Shown: one piece after another, positions 15,684 through 30,430 of the stretch
Layout: the number at the start of each line of letters is the position of its first letter
Position numbering within the stretch: position 1 is the first letter of the stretch
Origin: Candidatus Poribacteria bacterium
GTDB taxonomy: Bacteria; Poribacteria; WGA-4E; PCPOR2b
Assembly: GCA_028819845.1 (NCBI GenBank)
Contig: JAPPKS010000035.1
Span: forward strand, 1 to 64,000
Reading direction: 5' to 3'
DNA length: 64,000 nucleotides
The notes under the pieces: model-generated
Seen by the model: the letters and a program-made list of their open reading frames with translations, nothing else
Databases searched by the model: none
Told to the model about the DNA's origin: nothing
Program-made: the position numbers and the translations under genes

Positions 15684-18600
15684 ATGCCAAACTATCTCAC
15701 ACAACATCAAAGAATCCTAGAAATCCTCCAGAACTTCCGCGGCATCGAACCCCTCAAAAAACTGTTCTGGTCCGAGCTAAACTACGACCAGCGCAACGCC
15801 CCGCTCTCCTATCAAGGCGGAGACGCCCTCGCCAACGATCCAATCCTTCTCGCCGCCGGCGGAACGGACGGCGCTTTTCATATCATCTACGTCCATCTCA
15901 ATACTGACCGCCTGCTCCTGACGGCGGAACGCCCCATCATCTCGCGCCTCTTGGGTAACCACCCTTACGCCATGTTTGTTTTTAGCAACCGTGAACAGAC
16001 GCACTGGCATTTCGTCAATATCAAATACGATACGGACGACGCTAAAAAACGCCGCATGTACCGCCGCATCACAATCAGCCCCTACGAAAAACTCCGCACC
16101 GCGTCCGAGCGGATTGCCATGCTCGACCTGGAATCCATCAGTCCCATTCTCGAAACCATTCAACCCCTCGACATCCAGACCCGCCACGAATCAGCTTTCG
16201 ATGTCGAAGCCGTCACAAAGCAATTCTTTGAAGACTACAAATCCGTCTTTGACAATCTGCAGAAAGACTTGAAAGATCAGACGGACGAACGTGGGTGGGC
16301 GCACGATTATTCCCTACAATTCCTCAACCGCTGCATGTTCCTCTACTTCATCCAGCGCAAACGTTGGCTCGGTGACGATTCCGGCTTTCTGCGGACGTTT
16401 TGGGAGAGCTACTGTTCCGCAAACCAGCCGGACGATTCGTTTGTCGAGCGTTGGCTCAACGTCCTCTTCTTCGAGGCGTTTAACAAAAGATTCCACGGCG
16501 GACACCGCCAGTTTCCGGACGAAATCAGAAAAGCGCTGGCGTCGGCTCCCTACCTCAACGGCGGTCTGTTCACCGAGAACGCCCTCGACGAGTCACACCA
16601 TTTCCATATTTCTGATTCCCGCTTCGTGCGTATTTTCGATTTTCTTGAAAACTACAACTTCACTATCGCCGAAGACAGCCCGCTCGATCAGGAGGTCGCC
16701 GTCGATCCGGAGATGATCGGTAAGGTCTACGAAAGCCTCGTTAACGTCTCGGCGGAGACCGATGAACGCGGCGACGCCGGCATCTTCTACACGCCGCGCA
16801 CCGAGATTGACCTGATGTGCCGCCTCGCGCTGGTGGACAACCTTGCGAATCACTTGGGAGAGGAACACAAACCGGCGCTTTACCAAGCCGTGTTCGCCTT
16901 CGACCCGGACGACAAAACCGACGCCGATCAGAGGCTCATCGAAGCAAAACTTTGGAATCCGATTGGAGAGCGGCTAAGCGATATCGCAATTGTAGATCCC
17001 GCCTGCGGTTCCGGCGCTTTCCTCGTCGGGATGCTCCAAATCCTCGACGACCTGCGCGAAAGAGCCAATCGAGCGCTTGGACGGGAAGCATCCAGCTTCG
17101 ACCGCAAGAAGGCAATTATCGGAAGCAACCTCTACGGCGTGGACGTGATGGAGTGGGCATGCCACGTCGCGGAGTTGCGGCTCTGGCTGGCGCTCATCAT
17201 TGACGCAGAGTTTTCCACCGTTGAACTCCAATTGCGCAACGAGCCGCTGCTCCCGCACTTCTCCTTTAACATACGATGCGGCGACAGCCTTGTCCAAGAA
17301 ATCGGCGGCATGAACCTCGCCCAAATCCGTGCTGATTTCAGCGAGATACCAAAATCCTTAAAAGCCCGTACCACCCGCCTCAAAAATGAAAAGCTAAAGT
17401 TCTTTAACAATGACAGGACTTGTCATTACGATTCCGAACAGGAACTCAAACAAGAGGAAAAGAAGCTCTTCCAAGCCCTTATAGATACACGTGCCGAAGA
17501 TATCAAAAAGCAGATTGGCGATTTGCAGGAGCTTATTGAAGGACCAAGAGCGCAACAGATCCGGCTTGATGGCACAATCGAAGAGAGAATTGCTCACCAA
17601 TTTGAACTGGAGGCGGCGGAGTGGCGGAAACAGATTGAAACTTTGACTATAGACCGTGGCCGGCTTGTCCAAGCTCACGGCGCCCTCGCAGACGCGCGAA
17701 CATTGCCGTTTGTGTGGGACATCGCCTTTGTCGAAATCTTTGCTGACGACAGACGCGGGTTCGATATGGTTATTGGCAACCCGCCGTATGTCCGGCAGGA
17801 GAATATTTTGGATCCGAAACTATCGCGCGAAGAAATGACAGACGCACAAAAGAAGGTGTTCAATAAGACACGTAAGGCAAAACTCGCCCGATCCGTGTAT
17901 CAAGCCTACCCGCGCTATTTCGGTTACAAACGCGAAAAGGATGTCAAACCGGATAACCCGTCCGCCGCCGTCTCACAAAAACTCGACGCCAAAAGCGACC
18001 TCTACATTTACTTCTATTTCCACGGGCTTTCACTTCTCAATCCCAAGGGGTCGTTCTGTTTCATTACGTCCAATTCGTGGCTCGATGTCGGCTACGGAAA
18101 AGACCTCCAGGAGTTCACCCTCAAGCACTGCCGCATCAAACAGATTATCGACAATCGCGCGCGGCGTTCCTTCGCATCCGCCGATGTGAACACCGTCATC
18201 TGTCTCTTCTCCGCGCCCGACGAAAGTCGCCAGTCGGGGTTGGACTGTACGGCAAGATTCGTCTCCTTCAATACCCCTTTTGAAGCCATCCTAGATCCCG
18301 TGATTTTCTATGAGATTGAAACCGCCCCGGAACGCGACAGCACACCCGAACACCGCGTCGATCCAGTCTCTCAAAAAACGCTTTTGGAACGAGGTATTGT
18401 TGGCGCTTCTCCCAAACCGAAATACGCGGGCGACAAGTGGGGCGGAAAGTACCTCCGCGCACCGGACATCTACTGGACAATCCTGGAGAAAGGCAAAGAC
18501 AAACTAGTGAGGTTAGGCGACATCGCCGAGGTACGTTTCGGCATAAAGACAGGGGCAAACAGGTTTTTTTTCCTTGATGACGAAGCAATTCGACATTGGG

Positions 18601-19295
18601 GAATCGAGGAGGAGTTCCTGAAGCCCGTCATCAAAAGCCCGCGAGAGTGCAAAAGCATCCTAATCGATCCAAGCCAATTGAAGTTCAAACTCTTCATGTG
18701 CAATAAAGACAAAGAGGACCTAAAAGGCACCGCCGCTTTAGAATACATTGAATACGGCAAATCAAGAAGGTTTGACCAGAGACCGAGTTGCAGCGGTCGA
18801 GCGCGGTGGTGGGATTTAGGCATATGGAACCATGCCGAACTGCTTTGGATTGAAACAATGTATCAATCATTCAGGGTACATCGAAACGCACCATTTGTTT
18901 ACGAAAGTGATAAATTCTATGGGATAAAGTCTCAAGATAAAATCGACACTTTAACGGTTTTGCTCAACTCCACGTTCGTTATGCTTTTCAAACTCCTTTC
19001 GGGCTTCCATTCACTCGGAGAAGGAGCATTGAAGACGGCTGTGTATGAAGTCAAAGATTTCCAAATTCCATTGCCCGCAATATTTAATTTTGACGATAGG
19101 TTGGTGAACCAGTTTATCCACAGAGAAGTCGAGGCAATTCAAGATGAGATTAAGCACTCTGATCGTCGCGCCCTTGACGCAATAATCTTCGACGCTCTCA
19201 ACCTCACCCAAGGAGAACGCGATGCCGTATATAAAGACGTTATTGATCTTGTGCAGGCGCGCCTGCAAAAAGCGAGTAGTTTGAAGGAGACCTAA
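15684..19295 (+). CDS. Eco57I-type DNA methyltransferase with specificity region
   Basis: A 1203-residue restriction-modification protein. The N-terminal 300 residues are helical/beta and do not show a clear PD-ExK nuclease. The methyltransferase core has motif I VDPACGSGAFLVG at residues 437-449 and the adenine-specific NPPYVRQ at 699-705, separated by a long insert with a coiled coil (about 560-660; EQELKQEEKKL, KKQIGDLQELIEG). The last 350 residues (APDIYWTILEKGKDKLVRLGDIAEVRFGIKTG onwards) look like a target recognition region. The size and layout match Eco57I/PglX-like enzymes. Without a visible nuclease, cutting may depend on a partner, possibly the PLD-SNF2 helicase at 27101. First large gene of the defence island. 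Confidence 0.88.
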   Translation: MPNYLTQHQRILEILQNFRGIEPLKKLFWSELNYDQRNAPLSYQGGDALANDPILLAAGGTDGAFHIIYVHLNTDRLLLTAERPIISRLLGNHPYAMFVFSNREQTHWHFVNIKYDTDDAKKRRMYRRITISPYEKLRTASERIAMLDLESISPILETIQPLDIQTRHESAFDVEAVTKQFFEDYKSVFDNLQKDLKDQTDERGWAHDYSLQFLNRCMFLYFIQRKRWLGDDSGFLRTFWESYCSANQPDDSFVERWLNVLFFEAFNKRFHGGHRQFPDEIRKALASAPYLNGGLFTENALDESHHFHISDSRFVRIFDFLENYNFTIAEDSPLDQEVAVDPEMIGKVYESLVNVSAETDERGDAGIFYTPRTEIDLMCRLALVDNLANHLGEEHKPALYQAVFAFDPDDKTDADQRLIEAKLWNPIGERLSDIAIVDPACGSGAFLVGMLQILDDLRERANRALGREASSFDRKKAIIGSNLYGVDVMEWACHVAELRLWLALIIDAEFSTVELQLRNEPLLPHFSFNIRCGDSLVQEIGGMNLAQIRADFSEIPKSLKARTTRLKNEKLKFFNNDRTCHYDSEQELKQEEKKLFQALIDTRAEDIKKQIGDLQELIEGPRAQQIRLDGTIEERIAHQFELEAAEWRKQIETLTIDRGRLVQAHGALADARTLPFVWDIAFVEIFADDRRGFDMVIGNPPYVRQENILDPKLSREEMTDAQKKVFNKTRKAKLARSVYQAYPRYFGYKREKDVKPDNPSAAVSQKLDAKSDLYIYFYFHGLSLLNPKGSFCFITSNSWLDVGYGKDLQEFTLKHCRIKQIIDNRARRSFASADVNTVICLFSAPDESRQSGLDCTARFVSFNTPFEAILDPVIFYEIETAPERDSTPEHRVDPVSQKTLLERGIVGASPKPKYAGDKWGGKYLRAPDIYWTILEKGKDKLVRLGDIAEVRFGIKTGANRFFFLDDEAIRHWGIEEEFLKPVIKSPRECKSILIDPSQLKFKLFMCNKDKEDLKGTAALEYIEYGKSRRFDQRPSCSGRARWWDLGIWNHAELLWIETMYQSFRVHRNAPFVYESDKFYGIKSQDKIDTLTVLLNSTFVMLFKLLSGFHSLGEGALKTAVYEVKDFQIPLPAIFNFDDRLVNQFIHREVEAIQDEIKHSDRRALDAIIFDALNLTQGERDAVYKDVIDLVQARLQKASSLKET

Positions 19296-19342
19296 GGGGC
19301 ATGGTGTGTCGGCTTTACCAAAATCCGCAAAAATTCATAACT

Positions 19343-19360
19343 ACCCCAATATGTTGGGGT
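19343..19360 (+). terminator. Hairpin downstream of the Eco57I-type gene
   Basis: ACCCCAA (19343-19349) pairs perfectly with TTGGGGT (19354-19360) with a 4-nt loop, 48 bp after the stop of the methyltransferase gene. No long T run follows, so it is a weak or Rho-assisted terminator, or an mRNA-stabilising hairpin. Confidence 0.4.
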
Positions 19361-19396
19361 TTACCAATTGATTTATACATTATGCGGACTTTTTGC

Positions 19397-19425
19397 TTGC
19401 ATTCTTAGGATTTGGTAGGTATAAT
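19397..19425 (+). promoter_or_regulatory. Sigma70-type promoter TTGCAT-N17-TATAAT
   Basis: A -35 TTGCAT at 19397-19402 and a perfect -10 at 19420-19425 with ideal 17-bp spacing. It points to the HNH gene. Its position also decides the start of that gene: any start at 19412 would lie inside the promoter, so 19457 is used. Confidence 0.6.
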
Positions 19426-19456
19426 TTGCCATTCTTCTTCAAACGAGGTGATTTCA

Positions 19457-20710
19457 ATGGTAGAAGACAGATGTATCTACTGCAAGAGAGTTAAAGCCTT
19501 GAACAAAGAACATGCTTTTCCCAAAGCTCTATTGCATAAATGCGCAGCATTAAATGAATGTGCCCCCGAGTGGATAATAAAAAAGTTGTGTGTAGAATGT
19601 AACGGAAAGTTGGGCAAACTTGATGATATTCTAGTGACCAAGGGCCCCATGGCATTTGTATGGAAGATAATAAAAGCTGAGTTGAATCCAGAAAACCGGA
19701 GCAGCGATAGCGATTCCGTTTTCTACAACGCGGGCACGTATGGAATAAATCCTGTAAACCTGTTTTATCCAGATTCACTATACGGAAACCTAATAATTCT
19801 CCATGAGGAAGTGGGGACAAAGGCGGCCGGCTTCTATCCGACCCTATTAGGACAAGCTAGGGTTCCTCAAATGGTTTTGATTCATTACCCTGAAGGACAG
19901 ACTGCTGAGCAGGTCGTACAGGAGAACTGTGAAAAGTGGACTTCCGGCGAAATATCTGAATCAAATCATGATGAATACGACGATGTGTACAGCATTTTCG
20001 GAAATACTTATGTGTTTGGCCCGAAGGCTACGGAGTATTTCGTAGCTGGAATCGAAAGAGAACAAGAATTCGTGTCTAAGTTCGTGAAGAAACACGAACA
20101 CCTTCGATATGCCTTGGCCGCTCTATTTCCTGACAATCCTAAAGATGCCGGTAAGTTAAGCGGATTTTGCAAACGTCTCAACGCAAAAACTGAGATTCAG
20201 ATTGAAGCGAGTCAATTTGAACCGAAAGATCCCACGTCGAATTTTGTAATGGCGACTGCCGATAAAAATGCCATTCCATACATTGACAGAGCCATAGCCA
20301 AAGTAGCATTTCATTGCTTTTTATATTGGCATCCTGAATTCAGTGGTCAGGAACGTATTTTTAAAGAGATTAGAACTTTCGTTTTGAAAAACGGGAATCA
20401 TCAGACCTCAAATGGCGAAGATTTCGTGACTGATTTATACGTACCGAAAAGTTATTTTTGGTCATCAGATAAACATTTTCACATTTTCCGTTTTTATGAA
20501 AATGGAGACAATATAATCTGCCAGATTGTCTTCTTCACCGGGCTTTCGCTAGATTCCCTTCGCCGCGAGGCTCCTGAACCCCTTGCCAGCGAGATAATCT
20601 TGGCGGGGCATTCGGAAACAGCACGACGCGGTAGTGCTGAAGTGAAACGTCTTCCTTTCTACGTGCATGAGAAAAGCCAACTGAAGAGAAAGATACCTGT
20701 CAAGTTATGA
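19457..20710 (+). CDS. HNH-type endonuclease-like protein
   Basis: A 417-residue protein with an N-terminal zinc-supported HNH-like fold: C6-x2-C9, then E18-H19 in KEHAFPKAL, and a second pair C45-x2-C48-N49 followed by GKLG. This is the arrangement of HNH_5-like nucleases that cut or nick DNA. The remaining 350 residues are not recognised and could be a recognition or sensor region. The ATG at 19457 follows a GAGGTGA site by 5 nt and lies behind its own promoter. It is a single gene between the methyltransferase and TIR genes and is probably an independent defence gene. The nuclease role is inferred from the motif. Confidence 0.7.
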   Translation: MVEDRCIYCKRVKALNKEHAFPKALLHKCAALNECAPEWIIKKLCVECNGKLGKLDDILVTKGPMAFVWKIIKAELNPENRSSDSDSVFYNAGTYGINPVNLFYPDSLYGNLIILHEEVGTKAAGFYPTLLGQARVPQMVLIHYPEGQTAEQVVQENCEKWTSGEISESNHDEYDDVYSIFGNTYVFGPKATEYFVAGIEREQEFVSKFVKKHEHLRYALAALFPDNPKDAGKLSGFCKRLNAKTEIQIEASQFEPKDPTSNFVMATADKNAIPYIDRAIAKVAFHCFLYWHPEFSGQERIFKEIRTFVLKNGNHQTSNGEDFVTDLYVPKSYFWSSDKHFHIFRFYENGDNIICQIVFFTGLSLDSLRREAPEPLASEIILAGHSETARRGSAEVKRLPFYVHEKSQLKRKIPVKL

Positions 20711-20784
20711 CCGATTGGAAAACTCCGTGCGATATGCGACCTAAAGACGTCAACTGCCTGTATAGGAAAAGGCTAGCGATTCAA

Positions 20785-20813
20785 TTGAAAACTTAACGGT
20801 TGTGTGGTATACT
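20785..20813 (+). promoter_or_regulatory. Sigma70-type promoter TTGAAA-N17-TATACT
   Basis: A -35 TTGAAA at 20785-20790 and -10 TATACT at 20808-20813 with 17-bp spacing, upstream of the first TIR gene (ATG at 20881). It indicates separate expression of the TIR gene. Confidence 0.6.
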
Positions 20814-20880
20814 TAATCTCATTTAGTCAGCTGTCAAGAGCGGTAAATCAATAGCCAAAATATGTTGGAGCAGAGGAAAA

Positions 20881-21735
20881 ATGGAAGAGAAAGAGTATGA
20901 CGTCGCTTTGTCGTTTGCCGGGAAAGATAGACACCAGGCCGAACGGCTAGCCAAACTACTCGACGCGGAAGGATATTCGGTTTTCTACGACGAATTTGAA
21001 AGGGCGCAACTTTGGGGCAAAAACCTCTATCAACACTTGTCATCTGTTTACAAGGATCAAGCGCATTATTGTGTGATATTCTTGTCTAAACACTATGCAC
21101 GAAAGTTGTGGCCGCAACACGAACTCCAGAGTGCTCAGGCGAGGGCATTTAAAGAAAGCAAAGAGTACATCCTTCCTGTCCGTCTTGACGATACAGAGAT
21201 TCCGGGGCTTTTGGAAACGATCGGGTATCTTGATCTACGCGAAGTGTGCATTGAGCAAGTCTATAAAGCACTAGTAGAAAAATTACAGGACCGCACCTTT
21301 CAGTCGGCGGTAACTAATGAATCGGCCGGCATTGATAGTCCTAATACAACAATTACCCGCAATGGAGAAATAACTCGATCACATCAGAATGAAGAGTCCG
21401 ACAAATTCCTGAATATGCACGACCGTCGCGACGATTTACAGATAGTCACTCCGCAGATTTTTGAACAAATGGAAGAGAGAGCTGAAACGACATTTCGAAC
21501 TAGTGCCCCGAATCTTACAGTAAAAGTCCGCCCTGCTCTTCCCCATCGTCCGATAATCTCCACATCTGATATTTACGAGTTCATGAAAGTGGAACCGTCA
21601 ATCCCATTCAATGATTGGGCGGACGAGTTCGGGACAAAAAAGGTTAAAGGTGGGGTCTGCTTCATGGGAATTCCCGGTTCTTCAATCTATTGGGAATTGA
21701 ATGAACATGGTATCATTTATCACCGATTGGCATAA
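20881..21735 (+). CDS. TIR-domain protein (copy 1), ended by an in-frame TAA
   Basis: A 284-residue product with an N-terminal TIR domain (residues 1-135): YDVALSFAGKDR, VFYDEFERAQLWGKNL, YCVIFLSKHYARKLWPQHELQSAQARAF. The glutamate at residue 81 in the W-x-x-H-E motif is at the position of the catalytic Glu of NAD-degrading bacterial TIR domains, so NAD cleavage on phage sensing is plausible. After a linker, a second domain begins around 215 (TSDIYEFMKVEPSIPFNDWADEFG). The TAA at 21733-21735 interrupts a frame that otherwise stays open to 22155, so this may be a truncated gene or a readthrough product. It has its own promoter and an AGAGGA binding site. Confidence 0.8.
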   Translation: MEEKEYDVALSFAGKDRHQAERLAKLLDAEGYSVFYDEFERAQLWGKNLYQHLSSVYKDQAHYCVIFLSKHYARKLWPQHELQSAQARAFKESKEYILPVRLDDTEIPGLLETIGYLDLREVCIEQVYKALVEKLQDRTFQSAVTNESAGIDSPNTTITRNGEITRSHQNEESDKFLNMHDRRDDLQIVTPQIFEQMEERAETTFRTSAPNLTVKVRPALPHRPIISTSDIYEFMKVEPSIPFNDWADEFGTKKVKGGVCFMGIPGSSIYWELNEHGIIYHRLA

Positions 21736-22155
21736 AGTAAATCACCAAGTAGTGAATTTTACGCGTTTACCAAAGAAGAGGGCGTTGAGGAAAAGTACCT
21801 TTCCTTTGACCGACTTGTTCGAGATCTTGGTAACCTGATTCCTGTGGCACAATCCTTTTACAAGAAATGCTGTTATTCAGATGAAATTGTGTTTGCAGCC
21901 CAATTGCGACAAATCAAGGGTGAAAAACTGAAATATACAGAACACCAACACTCAGAGGAAATAAAGCGACAGGAGAGTGTTGAGTCTGAAATTTCAGTTT
22001 CCGTTGAGTGTCTACCGGGAGGCCTAGCGGACGCAGAAAAACTAATAGACCTTGTTGATGAGTTGATGAACCGACTTATCTGGGTGTTTAATGTAAACGA
22101 CCACGCTAGGCGAGATAAGGTCGAAGCTATCTTGAGACGATGTGAATTGGCGTGA
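21736..22155 (+). pseudogene. Downstream part of TIR protein copy 1, same frame after the TAA
   Basis: This segment continues the TIR frame with no further stop for 139 codons. It begins SKSPSSEFYAFTKEEGVEEKYLSFDRLVRDLGN and continues through VAQSFYKKCCYSDEIVFAAQLRQIKGEKL to a helical end (LIDLVDELMNRLIW). It reads as a natural continuation of the second domain (GSSIYWELNEHGIIYHRLA just before the stop). An independent ATG or GTG start exists at about 21844 but has no ribosome binding site, and it would begin in mid-domain. The full protein would be 424 residues. Either the gene was recently inactivated by a point mutation or the stop is read through. Confidence 0.65.
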
Positions 22156-22213
22156 ACGGCTACTCAATACCGGTTAGCATTTTCCATGCCGGGGAAGCGA
22201 CGGAAAAAACCAT

Positions 22214-22298
22214 CTGAATCACGGATTAAACAGATGAAGCGGATAGCGCAGATTTTCAATCCATGTCATCCGTTAATCCGCGGCAATCCGCGATTCAG
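22214..22298. repeat. Palindromic repeat, copy 1 of the 24-bp CCGCGATTCAG family
   Basis: CTGAATCACGGA (22214-22225) and TCCGCGATTCAG (22287-22298) are reverse complements with one mismatch, forming a long hairpin. The right part, 22275-22298, is the 24-bp sequence found exactly again at 22999-23022 and 24367-24390. It precedes the YwgA-like gene by 75 bp. A short open frame across 22186-22413 is made of this repeat and is not considered a gene. Confidence 0.7.
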
Positions 22299-22372
22299 GC
22301 AATTTCAAGTGTTTTGCTATCTGTCGAAAAGGGAGCGTTATACGGCATCATCCCTCAAAGGAAAACGTTCCT

Positions 22373-22948
22373 ATGCACATTCAAGACCTGATTCTGCTTG
22401 TCATCGGGAGTGAGGCAGAGAAAAGTCTCCGGGGACGAACTACGCTCCAAAAGAAACTCTATTTCCTGTCGGTAATAAACAAAACCGACCTCGGTTTCCG
22501 GCCGCACTACTATGGACCTTATAGCAGTCCGGTTGCGGAAAACCTAGATATACTCGTTTACGCCCGCTTTCTGAAAGAAGTCACGGAGTCTTATTCAACC
22601 GACCAAAACGTCTTTGGCGAGACCCGCCGCCATACCTATTTTTGGACATCCGACAGCGAAATTGTAATGGGCGAGATTAAAAAAGAGGACGGATACACAG
22701 ATTGGAAGCAAGCGCTTGACACGTTAAACAGCCTCCCATTGGCGGGCGATTTTAATACGCTCTCAATCGCTGCGAAAGTGCATTACATTTTCCAACAGCG
22801 GAAGCGCACCAAACGCAAACACATTAAGAAATTCGCCAAGGAATATGACTGGGAAATCAGTAACCTAGAGATTGCAGGCGTGCACTCATTTCTTAAAGCA
22901 CTTTCGCTTATATCCGTAAAAAAATCTACTAGACCGCAAGAGAAGTAA
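22373..22948 (+). CDS. YwgA-like protein
   Basis: A 191-residue cytoplasmic protein. The N-terminus (LILLVIG, RGRTTLQKKLYFL, FRPHYYGPYSSPVAENLDIL) matches the pattern of YwgA-type and SocA/Panacea-related proteins: a helical domain opening with R-T-x-L-Q-K and a GPYS motif. Such proteins occur in defence islands and some Panacea relatives act as antitoxins, but no toxin partner is fused here. The C-terminal 60 residues are very basic (QQRKRTKRKHIKKFAKEY), suggesting nucleic-acid contact. An AAGGA site precedes the ATG. It lies between two copies of the 24-bp repeat, as a single-gene cassette. Confidence 0.55.
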   Translation: MHIQDLILLVIGSEAEKSLRGRTTLQKKLYFLSVINKTDLGFRPHYYGPYSSPVAENLDILVYARFLKEVTESYSTDQNVFGETRRHTYFWTSDSEIVMGEIKKEDGYTDWKQALDTLNSLPLAGDFNTLSIAAKVHYIFQQRKRTKRKHIKKFAKEYDWEISNLEIAGVHSFLKALSLISVKKSTRPQEK

Positions 22949-22998
22949 CGATTCCCAGCGATAGGAAAACCGGGGATTCTATCCGTGTTTTTCCCGTA

Positions 22999-23022
22999 AA
23001 TCCGCGGCAATCCGCGATTCAG
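22999..23022. repeat. 24-bp repeat, copy 2 (AATCCGCGGC...GATTCAG)
   Basis: Exact copy of 22275-22298 and 24367-24390. It lies 51 bp after the YwgA-like gene and 30 bp before the AlbA-type gene start. Confidence 0.75.
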
Positions 23023-23051
23023 ACATTAGTAAATTGACTTGGGAACGATCG

Positions 23052-24275
23052 ATGTTTAACAGCGTAACCGAACTCACCGAGAAAATATATCTGGGAGAAG
23101 ACGCAACGATTGAATTCAAAAGAGAGTTGCCTCACAGAGATGGGCTCGCCGATGAAATCGTGGCGTTTGCCAACGCGAACGGTGGGGTGATACTAATCGG
23201 CGTCGGCGATGACAGCGAAATTGTCGGTATTGACCGCCACGATCTCGACAGGATAGAGAAAACAGTGGTTGAAATATGCAGCGACAACATTGACCCTATG
23301 GTTCACATAGTTACAGAAAAACTGCGAATCGACGATAAGAATCTGTTGAAAATAGATGTGCAGCCAAGCGCATTTGTACATAAATCGTCTAACGGTTATT
23401 TTATCCGCCAAGGCAGCAGTAGTAGAGAGATGACCACCGAGCAGTTGGGGCGGTTATTACAAAGCCGGTCGCAGGCACACAGAATCTCTTTTGATGAGCA
23501 GTTTGTACCGAACACTCACAAAGACACACTAAGGGAAAAGCTGTATCGGCGATTTATCACGGTGGAAGCAACCGATCCTGAGAAAGTAGTAGCCCTGCTA
23601 CTCAAAAGGCGCTTGCTGGTCAAAGACGGTCAAGATTGCCGCGCCTCGGTAGCCGGTCTGTTGATGTGTCATGACAGCCCCGACGATTACCTCTATAACA
23701 GCTTCATCCAAGCCGTTTTTTACAATGGCGAGCACAAGGATGCGAACTACCAGATTGACGCTAAGGATTTTAGGGGACCGCTGGACCAACAGGTTGTGGA
23801 CGCATTCAAGTTTGTTGAAAGATATAACCAAGTATCCGCCCGCAAGGACATTGGCAGAATAGAACGATCGCAATACAGCATGAGAGCTGTTTTTGAAGCA
23901 ATCGTTAATGCGGTTGTCCACCGAGATTATTCAAAAGCTGGCTCGAAGATTCGGTTGTTCATGTTCACAGACCGGCTGGAACTCTATTCGCCCGGGGCAT
24001 TGGCAAACACCTTAACCGTGGACGATTTGCCTTACAACCAAGCAACCCGAAACGAACTCCTCGCACGTCTACTTTCCGAAACAACGCTTGACGACAATAT
24101 GGGCAGGCAAGTAAAGAGGCGGCACTTTCTTGAGCGCCGGGGCGAAGGCGTCGGAATCATTCTCAACGAAAGCAATGAACTTAGCGGCAAAACCCCTGTT
24201 TACGAACTCTTCGGCGAGGAGTTGCGCTTGACCATTTTCGCCGCAAAATCCTTGCAAGATAACGACGAAACCTAG
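23052..24275 (+). CDS. AlbA/Schlafen-like ATP-binding protein
   Basis: A 407-residue protein with an N-terminal AlbA_2/Schlafen-type domain (DATIEFKREL near residue 14, EIVAFANANGGVILIGVGDD near 32, GYFIRQGSSSREMTTEQL near 116) and a C-terminal GHKL-type ATPase part (ALFEAIVNAVVHRDYS near 283, DRLELYSPGAL near 310, RGEGVGIILNE near 365). This is the arrangement of transcriptional regulators or defence-associated AAA_4 proteins. The ATG at 23052 is preferred over a TTG at 23034; a weak GGGAAC site lies before it. It sits directly behind repeat copy 2 and before copy 3. Role inferred: nucleic-acid sensing or regulation. Confidence 0.75.
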   Translation: MFNSVTELTEKIYLGEDATIEFKRELPHRDGLADEIVAFANANGGVILIGVGDDSEIVGIDRHDLDRIEKTVVEICSDNIDPMVHIVTEKLRIDDKNLLKIDVQPSAFVHKSSNGYFIRQGSSSREMTTEQLGRLLQSRSQAHRISFDEQFVPNTHKDTLREKLYRRFITVEATDPEKVVALLLKRRLLVKDGQDCRASVAGLLMCHDSPDDYLYNSFIQAVFYNGEHKDANYQIDAKDFRGPLDQQVVDAFKFVERYNQVSARKDIGRIERSQYSMRAVFEAIVNAVVHRDYSKAGSKIRLFMFTDRLELYSPGALANTLTVDDLPYNQATRNELLARLLSETTLDDNMGRQVKRRHFLERRGEGVGIILNESNELSGKTPVYELFGEELRLTIFAAKSLQDNDET

Positions 24276-24366
24276 AGGCGAAATCATAATACCCAGCCTC
24301 AACAAGAACGGCAACGTGATATGTAAACATTGGCATTTCAAACGAATCCCCTCCGTGTAGTCCTTT

Positions 24367-24390
24367 AATCCGCGGCAATCCGCGATTCAG
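24367..24390. repeat. 24-bp repeat, copy 3
   Basis: Exact third copy, 91 bp after the AlbA-type gene and 18 bp before the small membrane protein gene. The three copies span 2.1 kb and each precedes a single plus-strand gene. Confidence 0.75.
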
Positions 24391-24408
24391 ACAAAGCACA
24401 GCGCTCCC

Positions 24409-24816
24409 ATGGACGGCACTGAAAAAGTCGTAGAACACCTGAAAATGACCCAAGTTATCATTAACCGTCTAGCAAACAACTGTGTCTTGGTCAAAGGCTG
24501 GAGCATGACCATCATTCTCGCCGTCATGGTTTTAATCACCAAACATGAAATCCAAATCCCGTATTTTGTTGCAGTGCCCCTCATTCTTCCTATTTGGATA
24601 CTAGACGGATATTTCCTCCGCCAAGAGAGGTTATTTCGACAAGTGTATAACGAAATCAGGACAAAATACGACACCGATTTCGAAATGAATCCTATAAAAC
24701 ACAGCAAAAAGCCGAAATGTAGCTGGCTATCTGTTATCTTTTCTCCCACCCTTATTACTTTTTACATAGTAGAGATTTTCTTTATTATGGGGGTATTTGC
24801 TATTATCCAAAAGTAA
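24409..24816 (+). CDS. Small membrane protein of the KGW/LDGYxLRQERLF type
   Basis: A 135-residue protein. A short amphipathic start (VVEHLKMTQVIINRLANN) leads to two close transmembrane helices (WSMTIILAVMVLI, YFVAVPLILPIWIL), a conserved-looking loop (DGYFLRQERLFRQVYNEIR) and a C-terminal third helix (LITFYIVEIFFIMGVFAII). I recall related small membrane proteins with the LLKGWS and DGYYLRQERLFR motifs in many bacteria, often without an assigned name. The topology recalls SLATT-type membrane effectors, but the relation is unproven. The start has no good ribosome binding site; an in-frame ATG at 24445 is an alternative. It stands behind repeat copy 3 within the island, so a membrane effector role is possible. 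Confidence 0.65.
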   Translation: MDGTEKVVEHLKMTQVIINRLANNCVLVKGWSMTIILAVMVLITKHEIQIPYFVAVPLILPIWILDGYFLRQERLFRQVYNEIRTKYDTDFEMNPIKHSKKPKCSWLSVIFSPTLITFYIVEIFFIMGVFAIIQK

Positions 24817-25062
24817 GTCTGCTGCATCGTCAACTTTAACGTCAGCCGATACAACGCCGAAAAATGAGCTAATCAAAATAGGCTAACGCAGGCTAATCGC
24901 ATCAAGGAACATTAGAAACGCCATCGGCAACCGGCATGCAAGCCTAGGAGCGGGTTGAACACCGCGCATGACAATTCGAAATCGACAATTTTAGCCTTTA
25001 GCTCAAAGCGCGCCTCAACCGCTGTAAAAATTGCGCAAGACATCTTGCGAAAATAGACTACA

Positions 25063-25857
25063 ATGGTTACGCAGACGAAGATAGAGTGGACGGAATCGAC
25101 TTGGAATCCGGTGCGCGGCTGCAGCCGCGTGTCTGAAGGCTGCCGTTATTGCTACGCCGAACGTATCGCCGCGCGATTTGCTCAAAAGGGCTTAGCATAC
25201 GAGGGGATTGCCAAAATGACGAGTGCCGGACCTCGGTGGACGAATCGCGTCCAACGTGTGCCCGACGTTTTGGATCAGCCCTTAAAATGGAAAAAACCTC
25301 GCTTGATTTTTGTAAATTCCATGAGCGACCTGTTCCATGAGGACGTGCCGTTAAAATACATCCAAGAAGTCTTTGATGTTATGAGACGGGCGGACCGGCA
25401 CCAATTTCAAGTCCTCACCAAACGAGCGGAACGCCTTGCCGAATTGAGCCCTAAACTGCGCTGGCCGCCGAATGTTTGGATGGGGGTAAGTGTGGAAAGC
25501 GCAGAATACACCTTCCGGATTGACTGTTTGCGAGGCACCGAAGCGCAGCTCAAATTCCTGTCATTGGAACCCTTGATCGGGCGGCTCCGCCAACTCAGAT
25601 TAGACGGTATACATTGGGTGATTGTCGGAGGCGAATCAGGACCCGGTGCAAGACCTATGAATGAGGCGTGGGTCGCCGAGATTCGAGATCAGTGCCGTGA
25701 AGATTCGGTCCCCCTGTTTGTCAAACAAATGGGCACGGTTTGGGCGCGTAAACGGTCGCTGAACGGTGTCAGTGTCCGGCGCCGCGGCCGAAAAGGCGAC
25801 AACATGTCCGAATGGCGCGAAGATTTACAGATACGCGACTATCCGAAATGGAGTTAG
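25063..25857 (+). CDS. DUF5131 (phage Gp37/Gp68-like) three-Cys protein
   Basis: A 264-residue protein with the hallmark start of DUF5131: KIEWTESTWNPVRGCSRVSEGCRYCYAE, giving C-x6-C-x2-C at about residues 19-29, followed by FVNSMSDLFHEDVP, FQVLTKRAERL, NVWMGVSVES, LSLEPLIGRL and VIVGGESGPGARPM. The three Cys and the barrel-like pattern resemble radical-SAM-type iron-sulfur proteins. Members are found in phages and mobile elements, often paired with a three-Cys-motif partner protein (TcmP); no such partner is visible here. The enzymatic role is unknown. There is no strong ribosome binding site. The preceding 246 bp (24817-25062) hold no gene. Confidence 0.85.
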   Translation: MVTQTKIEWTESTWNPVRGCSRVSEGCRYCYAERIAARFAQKGLAYEGIAKMTSAGPRWTNRVQRVPDVLDQPLKWKKPRLIFVNSMSDLFHEDVPLKYIQEVFDVMRRADRHQFQVLTKRAERLAELSPKLRWPPNVWMGVSVESAEYTFRIDCLRGTEAQLKFLSLEPLIGRLRQLRLDGIHWVIVGGESGPGARPMNEAWVAEIRDQCREDSVPLFVKQMGTVWARKRSLNGVSVRRRGRKGDNMSEWREDLQIRDYPKWS

Positions 25858-26019
25858 GGGTTTTGTAACAGACGCCCCTCGGCTCACGGTAATCCCAAAT
25901 GGCATACGGTTCACGGCGATTCAATTCCAAACTTATCAATTCTGTGGTGGACTCAATCTCATAGGGTATACTATCTTGCGCCGTGTAAAGAAACCAAAAT
26001 TTGATGCGGGAGCGCAAAA

Positions 26020-26634
26020 ATGAACGAGAGACAATATGACGTAGCCCTGTCGTTTGCTTGGGAGGATCGTGGCTACGCCGAACATTTAGCCAAACTTCTC
26101 ACGGGAGGAGGGTATTCCATCTTTAATGACACAATTGAACGGGCGAAACTTTGGGGCAAAAATCTTTATGTTCACTTATCTTCTGCTTATACAAATCAGG
26201 CGCGTTACTGCGTCATATTCCTTTCTGAACGCTATGCACAGGGGCTGTGGACGAAACATGAGCTCCACAGCGCTCAGGCAAGGGCATTCGTTGAGGAGAA
26301 CCGAGAGAAAATTTTGCCAATCCGGCTTGACGCCACAGAGGTACCAAAATTCCTTTTGACCGCCGGATATTTTGATGGGCGTTCAATGACCGTTGAAGAA
26401 ATTTATCATGCTTTAGTAGAAAAGCTATCCGGCACCAAATCGAAGGCTATGGCACGGTCAAAACCAAAGTCACGCGAAGAATTCATCAAGTTAGCGCGAG
26501 AACATGCTAACATCGGTGGGTGGTACGATGAATCTTTTCTTGAACAAATAGGACGTGCAATCTACAACTCATGGCTAGGCGAAGAAATTGTCAATAACTA
26601 CAAACCTGCATGGAAAGTGCTATCCAATTTCTGA
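26020..26634 (+). CDS. TIR-domain protein (copy 2) with an extra tail, overlapping doc
   Basis: A 204-residue protein with a TIR domain (1-135) clearly paralogous to that at 20881: YDVALSFAWEDR, ERAKLWGKNLYVHL, YCVIFLSERYAQGLW, KHELHSAQARAF. The probable catalytic Glu is residue 81. The tail from residue 144 (MARSKPKSREEFIKL, then GWYDESFLEQIGRAIYNSWLGEEI) is unlike the C-terminus of copy 1 and is about 61 residues. It starts at an in-frame ATG (26449) preceded by GAAGG, so a separate small product may be made. The last 25 bp overlap the Doc toxin gene, so the tail occupies the position of a Doc antitoxin. I infer a coupled TIR-Doc unit; an antitoxin role is unproven. Confidence 0.82.
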   Translation: MNERQYDVALSFAWEDRGYAEHLAKLLTGGGYSIFNDTIERAKLWGKNLYVHLSSAYTNQARYCVIFLSERYAQGLWTKHELHSAQARAFVEENREKILPIRLDATEVPKFLLTAGYFDGRSMTVEEIYHALVEKLSGTKSKAMARSKPKSREEFIKLAREHANIGGWYDESFLEQIGRAIYNSWLGEEIVNNYKPAWKVLSNF

Positions 26635-27002
26635 GATATTTGACGGTTGAGGATATTCTGATGGTTGCCCACAGGCATGTGCGCAACTATCAGTTGTTGA
26701 AAGAAAATCAACTGCGCTATTTGGTTCAAATGGTCGGCGAATCATTGAATGACACGGAATTGTTCCCGACTCTGACCCAAAAAGCTGCACTATATGCCCA
26801 TCACATTATTACAGGACATATTTTCCTCGACGGGAATAAGCGCATAGGTTTGGATTGCGCACTCTGGTTTCTTGCGATGAATGGTTGTTCCCTGCGTCTC
26901 GACATCAATGAGTCTATAATCGAGCTTGGTCTTCGTATTGCCGATGGTACTTTGACAGATCTTGAAGCAATCGCAGATCGGCTCGAATCATGGATCTTGT
27001 GA
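26610..27002 (+). CDS. Doc/Fic-family toxin (death on curing)
   Basis: A 130-residue Fic-fold protein of the Doc type. The catalytic loop H-I-F-L-D-G-N-K-R at residues 70-78 fits the HxFx(D/N)(A/G)NKR signature, with the preceding helix (AALYAHHIITG) and the N-terminal LTVEDIL start typical of Doc. Phage P1 Doc phosphorylates elongation factor Tu and stops translation; a similar reaction is expected, since the motif carries the Doc-type loop. The gene begins within the end of the TIR gene (25-bp overlap, no separate ribosome binding site), so translation is coupled. No Phd-like gene precedes it, only the TIR protein tail. Confidence 0.85.
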   Translation: MESAIQFLRYLTVEDILMVAHRHVRNYQLLKENQLRYLVQMVGESLNDTELFPTLTQKAALYAHHIITGHIFLDGNKRIGLDCALWFLAMNGCSLRLDINESIIELGLRIADGTLTDLEAIADRLESWIL

Positions 27003-27100
27003 TTCTTCGATGGAAACATCTCCTCAAAAAAGACACCATTTAAAATGTAAAGCTACCTCAGAAAGCGAAAATCCTGATTTAAGATCATACGTAAAAGGGC

Positions 27101-30100
27101 ATGCCGCACGACATCATCGACAACCGCAACGAAAAGCTGGTTGAACACATTAACCTCCTCCTCGATTCGACCGAGAAGGCGAGGTTCGCGGTCGGATACT
27201 TCTTCCTTTCGGGCTTCCAGAGTATTGTTGAAGAACTTCAGAATGTCAGTGAACTGCGTCTGCTTATCGGCAACACCACGGATCGGAACACGCTAGAGCA
27301 GCTCGCCGAGGGGCACCGTAGGCTTGAACAGGTCGTCGAGTTTGCGGACGCGCACCGCTATGTTAAACGTGCACATGCAAGACAGGTGGGTTTTGACACC
27401 GCAGAAAACATCAGCGAGTCCGTGGAATTCATGGATCAGACTGACGACGCCGAAGCCCTAATCAAATCTATCGTACAGATGATTGCCGAGAAGCGCCTTC
27501 TCGTGCGGGTTTATACCAAAGGACGGCTGCACGCAAAAGCCTACATCTTCGACTATCGCCAAGACGGGCGGTACGAGAAGGGAGCCGCCATCATAGGGTC
27601 GTCCAACCTCACATTAGCCGGTCTAAACCACAACACCGAACTCAATGTGGTTGTGCACGGTACCACCAATCACGCCGAACTCTGCCGCTGGTTCGACGAG
27701 CTTTGGGACGAAGCTGACGACTTCGATGCATCCTTGATGGAGGCGATGAAAGCCTCATGGGGGTACGCGCTCGTCAAGCCTTACGACATCTACATGAAGA
27801 CGCTGTACGAATTGGTGAAAGACCGGCTGGAGGGCGGTGATGACCGCGAAGTACTCTGGGAAGATGACATTACCAAAGATCTGGCGGATTTTCAAAAGGT
27901 CGCCGTGCGGCAAGCGGTGCAGATAATCCGCGATAACGGCGGTGTATTTGTTTCCGATGTCGTGGGGCTCGGAAAAAGCTACGTCGGCGCGTCAATTATC
28001 AAGCACTTTGAATGGACCGAGCATGCGCGTCCGCTCATTATCTGTCCGGCGCCGCTGGTCAACATGTGGGAACGCTACAATGAGGTCTATCACCTCAACG
28101 CCCGCGTCCTTTCCATGGGCAAGTTGCGCGAGCGTGCCGGCGATAACGCTGAGGACAAGGATGGCGCGACGTCCTCGGTGTTTAACGATGTCAGATACCG
28201 CGACCGCAATTTCGTGCTGATTGACGAAAGCCACAACTTCCGCCACTCCGACACGCAGCGCTATAAGTTGCTGCAGACGTTCTTGGCATCTGGACGGCGC
28301 TGCTGTTTTCTCACCGCAACACCGCGCAACAAAAGCGCCTGGGACGTGTTCCATCAGATTAAACTCTTCCACCCGAGCGACATCACCGATTTGCCGATTG
28401 ACCCGCCCGACCTGCGAGAATACTTCCGTAAAATTGAGAAGGGCGAGCGGCGTCTCCCCGATCTCTTGGGAAACATTCTGATTCGACGCACCCGCAGCCA
28501 CATTCTGCGCTGGTACGGTTTCGATGCCCAGACCGAAAAACCGGTCGATCCGTCCGAGTTTCAGCAGTACCTCGACGGGGGTCGAAAGGCTTACGTCCTC
28601 GTCGGCGGCAACAAGCAGTTCTTTCCTAACCGTTCGTTAGAAACCGTATCCTACAGCATTGAGGACACATATCAAGGGCTTTATCATGAGTTGCGCGGTC
28701 ATTTGGGCAAACCGCGCGGGAAAGACTCGGCTTCGCTCGCGGCTGGACAGCTTACCTATGCGCGGTACGGACTCTGGAACTATGTGCGTCCATCGAAGCA
28801 GAAGCAGGATCCGTATGCCGACCTGCAGCGATCCGGGGCAAATCTTCGCGGGTTGATGCGGATACTCCTGTTCAAACGCTTTGAATCAAGCGTCCACGCC
28901 TTTAGGCAGACGATACGGCGGCTGCTTAAGCTGCACAAACTTTTCGCGGTGGCGCTCGAAAACGGAATTGTGCCCGCTGGGGATGATGCGCAGGCGATTC
29001 TTTACGAACCCTCTGCCGTCGAAGAGCAAGACCTAATGGACGCTTTGGCAGCGGCGTCCGAGCGGTATAAGGCAGACGATTTCAATGTCGAATCGCTTCA
29101 AGAACACCTCTCCAACGACATAGAACTGTTGCAGCGAATTTTGAATCTAGTCGATCCGATTACCCCCGAACAAGACGCGAAGCTGCGATCGTTGCTAAGC
29201 CGTCTGGAACAACCCCCGCTGCAAGGCGGCAAGTGCCTAATCTTCACGGAATACGCGGACACCGCAGACTATCTATACAAAAACCTCAACCCGGGCAACG
29301 AGCGCGGCGATATTGATGTGATTTATAGCGGGGACAAAAGCAAGGAACGCGCCGTGGGGCGGTTCGCCCCGAAAGCAAATCCAGAATACGAATTTCAGCG
29401 CGGTGAATCGGAACTGTCCACGCTCATCGCCACCGATGTCTTGGCGGAAGGGTTGAACCTGCAAGACGGGAATACAATCATCAACTACGACCTCCACTGG
29501 AATCCGGTGCGGCTCATCCAGCGGTTCGGCCGTATCGACCGCATCGGAAGCAAACACGATGTGATTTACGGCTTCAATTTTCTGCCTGAAACCGGAATCG
29601 AGCGGAATTTGGGGTTGCGTGAGATTCTCCGTTCGCGGATCCAGGAGATTCACGACACCATCGGCGAGGACGCGGCTATCCTTGATGAATCCGAGCAACT
29701 CAACGAAACCGCAATGTACGCCATCTATGAGGGGCAGGGCGACCAGTTGAGCCTCTTCGATGACGATAAAGAGTTGATGGATCTTAACGAGGCAGAGGAG
29801 TTGCTGCGGCGGTTGCAGCGCGATGACCCGCCTGAATTTGAACGTATCGCGAAACTTCGAAACGGTATCCGCGCCGCGATACCGAGAGAATCAAAGGGCA
29901 CCTATCTCTTTTGTCAGGCTGGACGGTATCAGCAACTCTTTCTCTTGAACGAAGCGGGCGAGATTATCTCTAGAGACATCCCTCGCATCCTCACCGCCAT
30001 CAAGTGCGAACCCGATCTGCTCGGCGGCGCGTTGCCCGCCGATTACAATCAAACCGTCATGCGGGTCAAGCGAGAATTCGCCCGAGAGATGAGAGCGCGT

Positions 30101-30430
30101 CAAGCGGAACGTGAGCACAAACTTTCGCTGTCGCATGCGCAACGGTATGTAATCCGTGAGTTGCAACTTATCTACATGGAGGCGAGCGGCGAAGACCTTA
30201 AGGCACAAATCAACCTGTTGGAGCGTGCGTTCCGCGGCGCCATTACCGACGCGCTTAACCGCGAGCTTAATCTGCTGCGCCGTAATGGTGTAACTGGAGA
30301 TGCGCTGCTCAGAAACCTAAGCCAACTCTACCGCCAACACAACATGAGGGAATGGAACATGAGGCAGCAGGACATCCAGTCCCAGAACGCAGACCTGCCG
30401 CAGATTATCTGCAGCGCGGCGCTAGTCTAA
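27101..30430 (+). CDS. PLD nuclease-SNF2 helicase fusion
   Basis: A 1109-residue defence-type ATPase. Residues 1-210 form a phospholipase D-like nuclease domain with one HKD motif (H144-A-K146 in GRLHAKAYIFDY, then GSSNLTLAGLNHNTELN). The SNF2/superfamily 2 helicase follows: Walker A GLGKS (Lys292), DESH at 375-378, ATPRN near 406, and C-terminal motifs LIATDVLAEGLNLQ and LIQRFGRIDRIG near 800. Such proteins translocate on DNA and couple it to cleavage; relatives occur in DISARM-like and other restriction islands, commonly with an Eco57I-type methyltransferase. Here the likely partner is 7.8 kb upstream at 15684. Length is typical. It is the last gene of the island. Confidence 0.88.
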   Translation: MPHDIIDNRNEKLVEHINLLLDSTEKARFAVGYFFLSGFQSIVEELQNVSELRLLIGNTTDRNTLEQLAEGHRRLEQVVEFADAHRYVKRAHARQVGFDTAENISESVEFMDQTDDAEALIKSIVQMIAEKRLLVRVYTKGRLHAKAYIFDYRQDGRYEKGAAIIGSSNLTLAGLNHNTELNVVVHGTTNHAELCRWFDELWDEADDFDASLMEAMKASWGYALVKPYDIYMKTLYELVKDRLEGGDDREVLWEDDITKDLADFQKVAVRQAVQIIRDNGGVFVSDVVGLGKSYVGASIIKHFEWTEHARPLIICPAPLVNMWERYNEVYHLNARVLSMGKLRERAGDNAEDKDGATSSVFNDVRYRDRNFVLIDESHNFRHSDTQRYKLLQTFLASGRRCCFLTATPRNKSAWDVFHQIKLFHPSDITDLPIDPPDLREYFRKIEKGERRLPDLLGNILIRRTRSHILRWYGFDAQTEKPVDPSEFQQYLDGGRKAYVLVGGNKQFFPNRSLETVSYSIEDTYQGLYHELRGHLGKPRGKDSASLAAGQLTYARYGLWNYVRPSKQKQDPYADLQRSGANLRGLMRILLFKRFESSVHAFRQTIRRLLKLHKLFAVALENGIVPAGDDAQAILYEPSAVEEQDLMDALAAASERYKADDFNVESLQEHLSNDIELLQRILNLVDPITPEQDAKLRSLLSRLEQPPLQGGKCLIFTEYADTADYLYKNLNPGNERGDIDVIYSGDKSKERAVGRFAPKANPEYEFQRGESELSTLIATDVLAEGLNLQDGNTIINYDLHWNPVRLIQRFGRIDRIGSKHDVIYGFNFLPETGIERNLGLREILRSRIQEIHDTIGEDAAILDESEQLNETAMYAIYEGQGDQLSLFDDDKELMDLNEAEELLRRLQRDDPPEFERIAKLRNGIRAAIPRESKGTYLFCQAGRYQQLFLLNEAGEIISRDIPRILTAIKCEPDLLGGALPADYNQTVMRVKREFAREMRARQAEREHKLSLSHAQRYVIRELQLIYMEASGEDLKAQINLLERAFRGAITDALNRELNLLRRNGVTGDALLRNLSQLYRQHNMREWNMRQQDIQSQNADLPQIICSAALV

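Follow-up and report, generated by a model that had tools for sequence, protein, structure and literature searches.

The stretch of DNA analysed here (hereafter the window) comprises 64,000 nucleotides of a 4.6 Mb genome (G000) from Candidatus Poribacteria, best known as symbionts of sponges. At 26020-27002, a gene for a TIR-domain protein with a C-terminal extension (the TIR-tail protein) directly precedes a Doc/Fic toxin gene, inside a locus carrying further defence genes. The features to which we refer below, all on the plus strand, are as follows.

15684..19295, +, type IIG-like restriction-methylase, the left bracket of the defence locus (PADLOC REase_MTase_IIG, 1.5e-52)
20881..21735, +, TIR paralogue without a tail, 63% identical over 139 aa
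26020..26634, +, TIR-tail protein, a proposed TIR-fused Doc antitoxin of 204 aa
26020..26448, +, TIR domain (TIR_2), residues 1-143 (PF13676, E=1e-14)
26260-26262, +, catalytic-type Glu81 of the TIR-tail protein
26449..26451, +, internal ATG, probably not a start
26449..26577, +, central tail segment, residues 144-186 (REHANIGGWYDES..LEQIGRAIYNSW), found in three poribacterial TIR-tail genes only
26578..26631, +, Phd-C-like putative Doc-neutralising peptide, residues 187-204 (Y194, A197, W198, K199, L201), recognised by HMM and shared pattern
26610..27002, +, Doc/Fic toxin gene, 130 aa (TIGR01550, PF02661)
26631 (CTG, in a CTGA overlap) or 26640 (TTG), +, alternative Doc starts
26817-26843, +, Doc motif HIFLDGNKR
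27101..30430, +, HKD+Snf2 (DrmD-like) helicase, the right bracket of the defence locus (PADLOC C3a139, 5.3e-79)

The first-pass annotation of this locus had described a TIR domain with a probable catalytic Glu81, followed by a 61-residue tail missing from the paralogue at 20881. Both descriptions hold: the TIR_2 match is clear, Glu81 and Trp77 are invariant in an alignment of 22 TIR homologues, and the paralogue matches residues 1-139 of the TIR-tail protein only. The TIR domain and the tail are both under purifying selection, since dN/dS between the window and its relative in genome G022 is approximately 0.31 for the former and 0.13 for the latter. Profile searches also show the protein to be weakly similar to PDC-S66 and retron-TIR. 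It lacks the small N-terminal DNA-binding domain of classical Phd/YefM or AbrB antitoxins, with no DNA-binding family scoring above cut-off in Pfam or NCBIfam, and no Pfam match to the Panacea domain of PanA antitoxins was found. Its AlphaFold model is poor (mean pLDDT 57, with the C-terminal peptide below 50). The same TIR domain also heads a family of approximately 400-aa proteins with a shared C-terminal part of some 260 aa, and occurs in some TIR-TPR proteins of 649-991 aa elsewhere in the phylum (L087-L106); no match to the Doc peptide was found in either group.

Searched against antitoxin and other families, the tail matched nothing in Pfam and gave no usable match in NCBIfam; a weak hit to LIC10486 (0.014) was too poor for use. 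No other part of the TIR-tail protein is as well conserved as the central segment of the tail, which has the lowest dN between the window and G022 and is confined to three of the 85 poribacterial genomes. Across 84,980 genomes it was found, outside its own genome, only in G014 and G022, so it says little about function. The internal ATG at 26449 had been suggested as a start from which the tail might be made separately. We reject this proposal: neither of the other two TIR-tail proteins (G014, G022) has a methionine at the equivalent position, and the GAAGG sequence sits just 2 nt upstream of the ATG.

The downstream gene is a convincing Doc. It scores 46.4 bits against TIGR01550 (cut-off 38.65) and 37.4 against PF02661 (cut-off 24), and carries the HxFx(D/N)(A/G)NKR active-site motif as HIFLDGNKR, whose residues vary little or not at all across 29 homologues. 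Its AlphaFold2 model (pLDDT 92) has the Doc fold, the best matches in the PDB being P1 Doc-Phd complexes (TM 0.74-0.82). The exact start of the gene is less certain. The first-pass annotation placed it 25 bp before the TIR stop, and the mechanical open reading frame does have an ATG 25 bp ahead of the last base of that stop codon. This is, however, just one of two possible starts: a stop closes the Doc frame inside the apparent overlap at 11 of 29 homologous loci, where the Doc ATG lies near the partner stop, often in a 4-bp ATGA overlap; the equivalent position in the window reads CTGA, and the Doc model is disordered at residues 1-4 (pLDDT<50). With either start, the TIR-tail gene lies directly before Doc, overlapping or abutting it, an arrangement kept in G014 and, with a Doc remnant, in G022.

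What links the two genes is the extreme C-terminus of the TIR-tail protein. Reading the gene ahead of each Doc relative in the set of 85 poribacterial genomes, we found Doc relatives in 57, most of them 56-69% identical to the window Doc, and a shared terminal peptide on the upstream partner at 44 of 45 intact Doc loci. The peptide follows the pattern [DE]x[IL][LV]xxYx[R]AW[K]xLGN or, in shorter form, Yx[RDEP]AW[KRE]xL. The TIR-tail proteins end in NYKPAWKVLSNF (window), NYDEAWKTLGNL (G014) and NYEQAWKTLANV (G022), and an HMM built from the non-TIR Doc partners alone recovers all three, in a search space of 5,000, with E-values of 7.7e-8 (G022), 1.2e-7 (G014) and 0.0023 (window), the window's own peptide being the most diverged. 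Genome-wide counts, which derive from a degenerate DNA pattern for the peptide, gave matches at 62 sites across the phylum, compared with 4 for a reversed-pattern control, and nearly all of these matches adjoin Doc or a Doc remnant. The pattern also reaches beyond the phylum. AbrB-type Doc antitoxins from plasmids of Enterococcus and Pseudonocardia and from IMG/VR phage contigs share it, with ends such as LSEYDAAFKELVDR, LREYGPAFRRLADL and LRRYGPAFKQLADYD, or, for the small annotated Doc antitoxins of these plasmids and the one found on phage contigs, ALSEYDAAFKELVDR, MLREYGPAFRRLADL and VLRRYGPAFKQLADYD.

Published studies of known antitoxins point to the same element. The Doc-binding part of E. 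faecalis Phd is its C-terminal part (PMC13034048), and Salmonella Phd needs hydrophobic hot spots, with Phe56 and Leu70 acting as gatekeepers of Doc inhibition (PMC9207808). In a register alignment of the TIR tail with Salmonella Phd the Tyr, Trp and Leu positions match, and a Gly stands at the equivalent of Phe56. Homology, synteny and the way these genes decay strongly support the earlier placing of the tail in the antitoxin position, with the predicted Doc-binding element narrowed to the last 18 or so residues (GEEIVNNYKPAWKVLSNF).

As the codons of the peptide overlie the first Doc codons of the mechanical open reading frame, the likeness might have been forced by the Doc frame, or the overlap and C-terminal resemblance might be accidents of two neighbouring genes. 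We regard this as most improbable. The closure of the Doc frame across the overlap at those 11 of 29 loci led us to reject it as the cause of the shared peptide, and indicates that the peptide is conserved for the sake of the partner; the HMM scores and the keeping of the gene order in three divergent genomes argue likewise. Immediately downstream of each of the three TIR-tail genes lies Doc or what is left of it, so the TIR-tail-Doc order that the first-pass annotation had proposed to look for does recur, and the lack of co-occurrence it had named as fatal to its proposal is not seen.

The proteins that carry the peptide are diverse. Most Doc partners in the phylum are TPR-repeat proteins, and G017 has a short helical one. 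TIR-bearing partners occur in six genomes and represent three unrelated TIR types: the TIR-tail genes of the window genome, G014 and G022; a second type combined with TPR in G060 and G081; and a third type combined with TPR in G049 (1.6e-27), where Doc is intact. In G020 the partner joins TPR to FRG (2.1e-14), an ART-superfamily domain and proposed NADase (PMC9503650). Predicted NAD-acting domains thus seem to have acquired the Doc peptide on about four occasions. The Docs of the window and G014 fall in one clade (support 100/99), which makes a single origin of the TIR-tail form probable. Because the same peptide sits on TPR, TIR-TPR, FRG-TPR or short helical proteins, we propose that the N-terminal domain of a Doc partner is an exchangeable sensor or effector part. 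Two further arrangements were noted in passing: in G020 and G021 (L073, L075) a short helical Doc antitoxin is extended beyond the peptide by approximately 130 residues with no Doc behind it, and in two genomes FRG-domain genes lie about 2 kb or less from Doc-type antitoxin loci (L036 1437-2216, minus strand; G020:C74:38745-39080).

Gene decay at these loci is strongly lopsided. A broken Doc accompanies an intact partner at 17 loci, whereas an intact Doc beside a partner without the peptide end occurs once (p=1.4e-4, an indicative value as the loci are related), and the 17 Docs are broken in differing ways. The single reverse case lies in the window's own genome (contig C21), where a second, intact Doc (G000:C21:28251-28634, L036) follows a TPR partner that is cut by a TGA at the invariant Trp, with the remaining peptide codons still in frame; the TIR-tail protein might cover for this truncated partner. 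Of the loci with TIR or FRG partners, those of the window and G049 keep an intact Doc. In G014, G022, G060, G081 and G020 it is broken, which gives 5 of 7 loci compared with 12 of 55 others (p=0.014, with small numbers and the G060 locus near a contig edge). In G014 a 7-bp deletion has killed the toxin, and what survives in G022 is a 19-codon remnant attached to the 3' end of a Schlafen/AlbA-type gene; both genomes keep an intact TIR-tail gene. Since neither of these other TIR-tail genomes has a working Doc, the pairing cannot be called obligate: either it decays easily, or an effector domain on the partner makes Doc dispensable. At the site of the lost Doc, G022 carries a nucleoside 2-deoxyribosyltransferase-like gene (L037 3687-4154, minus strand; PF05014, 2.1e-27).

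The surroundings are those of a variable defence region. Ends homologous to those in the window bracket the TIR-tail gene in G022 and G014, with the HKD+Snf2 helicase homologue present in the former and truncated in the latter. In all three genomes (window 15684-30430; L037; L038) the methylase and helicase enclose variable cargo, which includes the TIR-tail gene in every case and differs in several other genes, and the bracketed region looks like a defence hot spot. Within the window it also holds, between the two TIR genes, the PADLOC candidates PDC-M50A (24409-24816, 1.1e-34) and PDC-M41B/DUF5131 (25063-25857, 5.9e-98), together with an open reading frame (22373-22948) that weakly resembles PDC-M19A and the C-terminal portion of DarG (1e-6). 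The latter may encode an antitoxin-like domain that has no obvious toxin.

Taken together, homology, synteny and the gene-decay pattern lend strong support to an antitoxin role, and we consider it probable, on the evidence of sequence comparison, that the TIR-tail protein is the antitoxin of a type II pair of the Phd-Doc kind in which a TIR domain replaces the usual N-terminal domain. Counting against this role are the Gly at the Phe56 position, the dead Docs of the other two TIR-tail genomes, the truncated partner of the intact C21 Doc and the divergence of the window's own peptide. A helix formed by the last 18 or so residues would bind Doc and keep it inactive, and the overlap of the genes would couple their translation, so that Doc is made beside its inhibitor. 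The TIR domain would serve as a sensor, as an NADase, or as both. On a trigger, the TIR-antitoxin would be lost or rearranged and Doc set free to phosphorylate EF-Tu, as P1 Doc does, and the outcome would be a two-armed shutdown. With a TIR in place of a small DNA-binding domain, autorepression by the TIR-tail protein is not expected.

The pair agrees with the Phd-Doc systems of phage P1, Salmonella and, of the AbrB type, E. faecalis (PDB 3K33, 3DD7, 9VZC) in its Doc fold and HxFx(D/N)(A/G)NKR motif, in a correspondingly placed C-terminal antitoxin helix of the form [YHF]xx[AL][WFY]xxL, and in an antitoxin gene directly upstream that overlaps Doc in many loci. It differs in carrying an N-terminal TIR rather than a small DNA-binding domain, and its Doc is only some 20-33% identical to the known ones. 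Another precedent is PanA-DocD6 of C. doosanense, where a Phd-C element likewise sits on a foreign N-terminal domain, a proposed sensor, and neutralises Doc; there the carrier is Panacea, not a predicted NAD-consuming enzyme, and the part of that report available to us mentions no TIR, TPR or FRG carrier (PMC10440598). With stand-alone TIR antiphage effectors (Thoeris ThsB, SpbK, retron-TIR, PDC-S66) the protein shares a TIR_2-type domain and a place in a defence locus. To our knowledge, none of these has a Doc partner, and their other parts are sensors or effectors with no Doc-binding peptide. A literature search that covered few subscription journals returned no relevant link between TIR and a death-on-curing antitoxin or between a TPR partner and Doc, and no TIR or FRG carrier of a Doc-silencing peptide. 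Within that coverage, the impression that a joined TIR-Doc system is undescribed survives for the TIR and FRG versions, although the underlying principle of a transplantable Phd-C is already known from PanA-Doc.

The protein could be an antitoxin whose TIR merely carries the peptide, as TPR repeats would, lending stability, oligomerisation or trigger recognition and consuming no NAD. This sub-case of our favoured explanation is a realistic possibility, though we would not put it at even chances: most partners bear TPR repeats and no enzyme, and in PanA-Doc the neutralisation of Doc by Phd-C requires no more than a carrier that lends stability, for which even SUMO will do (PMC10440598). The invariance of Glu81 and Trp77 speaks against it, as does the fact that TIR and FRG are both credited with NAD chemistry (PMC9503650), which a carrier role does not predict. 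Another view, in which the antitoxin peptide is a relic, holds that recombination brought a TIR gene into a TPR-Doc locus, where it acquired the 3' end of the old antitoxin, and that it now functions on its own as Doc decays. The excess of broken Docs beside TIR and FRG partners and the persistence of the TIR-tail gene without Doc in G022 and G014 fit such a history. It remains unlikely in our judgement, given that the window Doc is intact with its catalytic motif, that the peptide keeps its conserved positions despite saturation, relative to G014, at synonymous sites in other parts of the gene, and that G049 pairs an unrelated TIR-TPR partner with an intact Doc. Control might also run the other way, with Doc restraining the TIR, and for adjacent and overlapping genes mutual control is conceivable. 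We think this very improbable; in G014 and G022 the TIR-tail gene has outlived its Doc undamaged, so the TIR needs no Doc as a restraint, and an intact Doc is almost never found without a peptide-bearing partner.

Within the antitoxin reading, the first-pass proposal of one switch that joins a predicted TIR NADase to a putatively EF-Tu-modifying Doc is plausible, though we put it well below even chances. We offer with similar reserve its extension to the phylum, namely that in Poribacteria NAD-consuming domains (three TIR types and FRG) were fused time and again to the Doc peptide, creating dual-lock abortive-infection devices in which one trigger would both fire an NADase and free a translation-blocking kinase. 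One protein may then hold two different cell-shutdown enzymes in check. An antitoxin is usually viewed as a DNA-binding domain with a neutralising tail; here the tail sits on immune-effector domains, which would unite a toxin-antitoxin pair and a TIR effector in one device. Exchange of the N-terminal domain provides a testable explanation of how a Doc module senses its trigger. Finally, the loss of Doc beside partners with a predicted effector of their own, small as the numbers are, suggests a route by which toxin-antitoxin pairs give rise to single-gene immune effectors.
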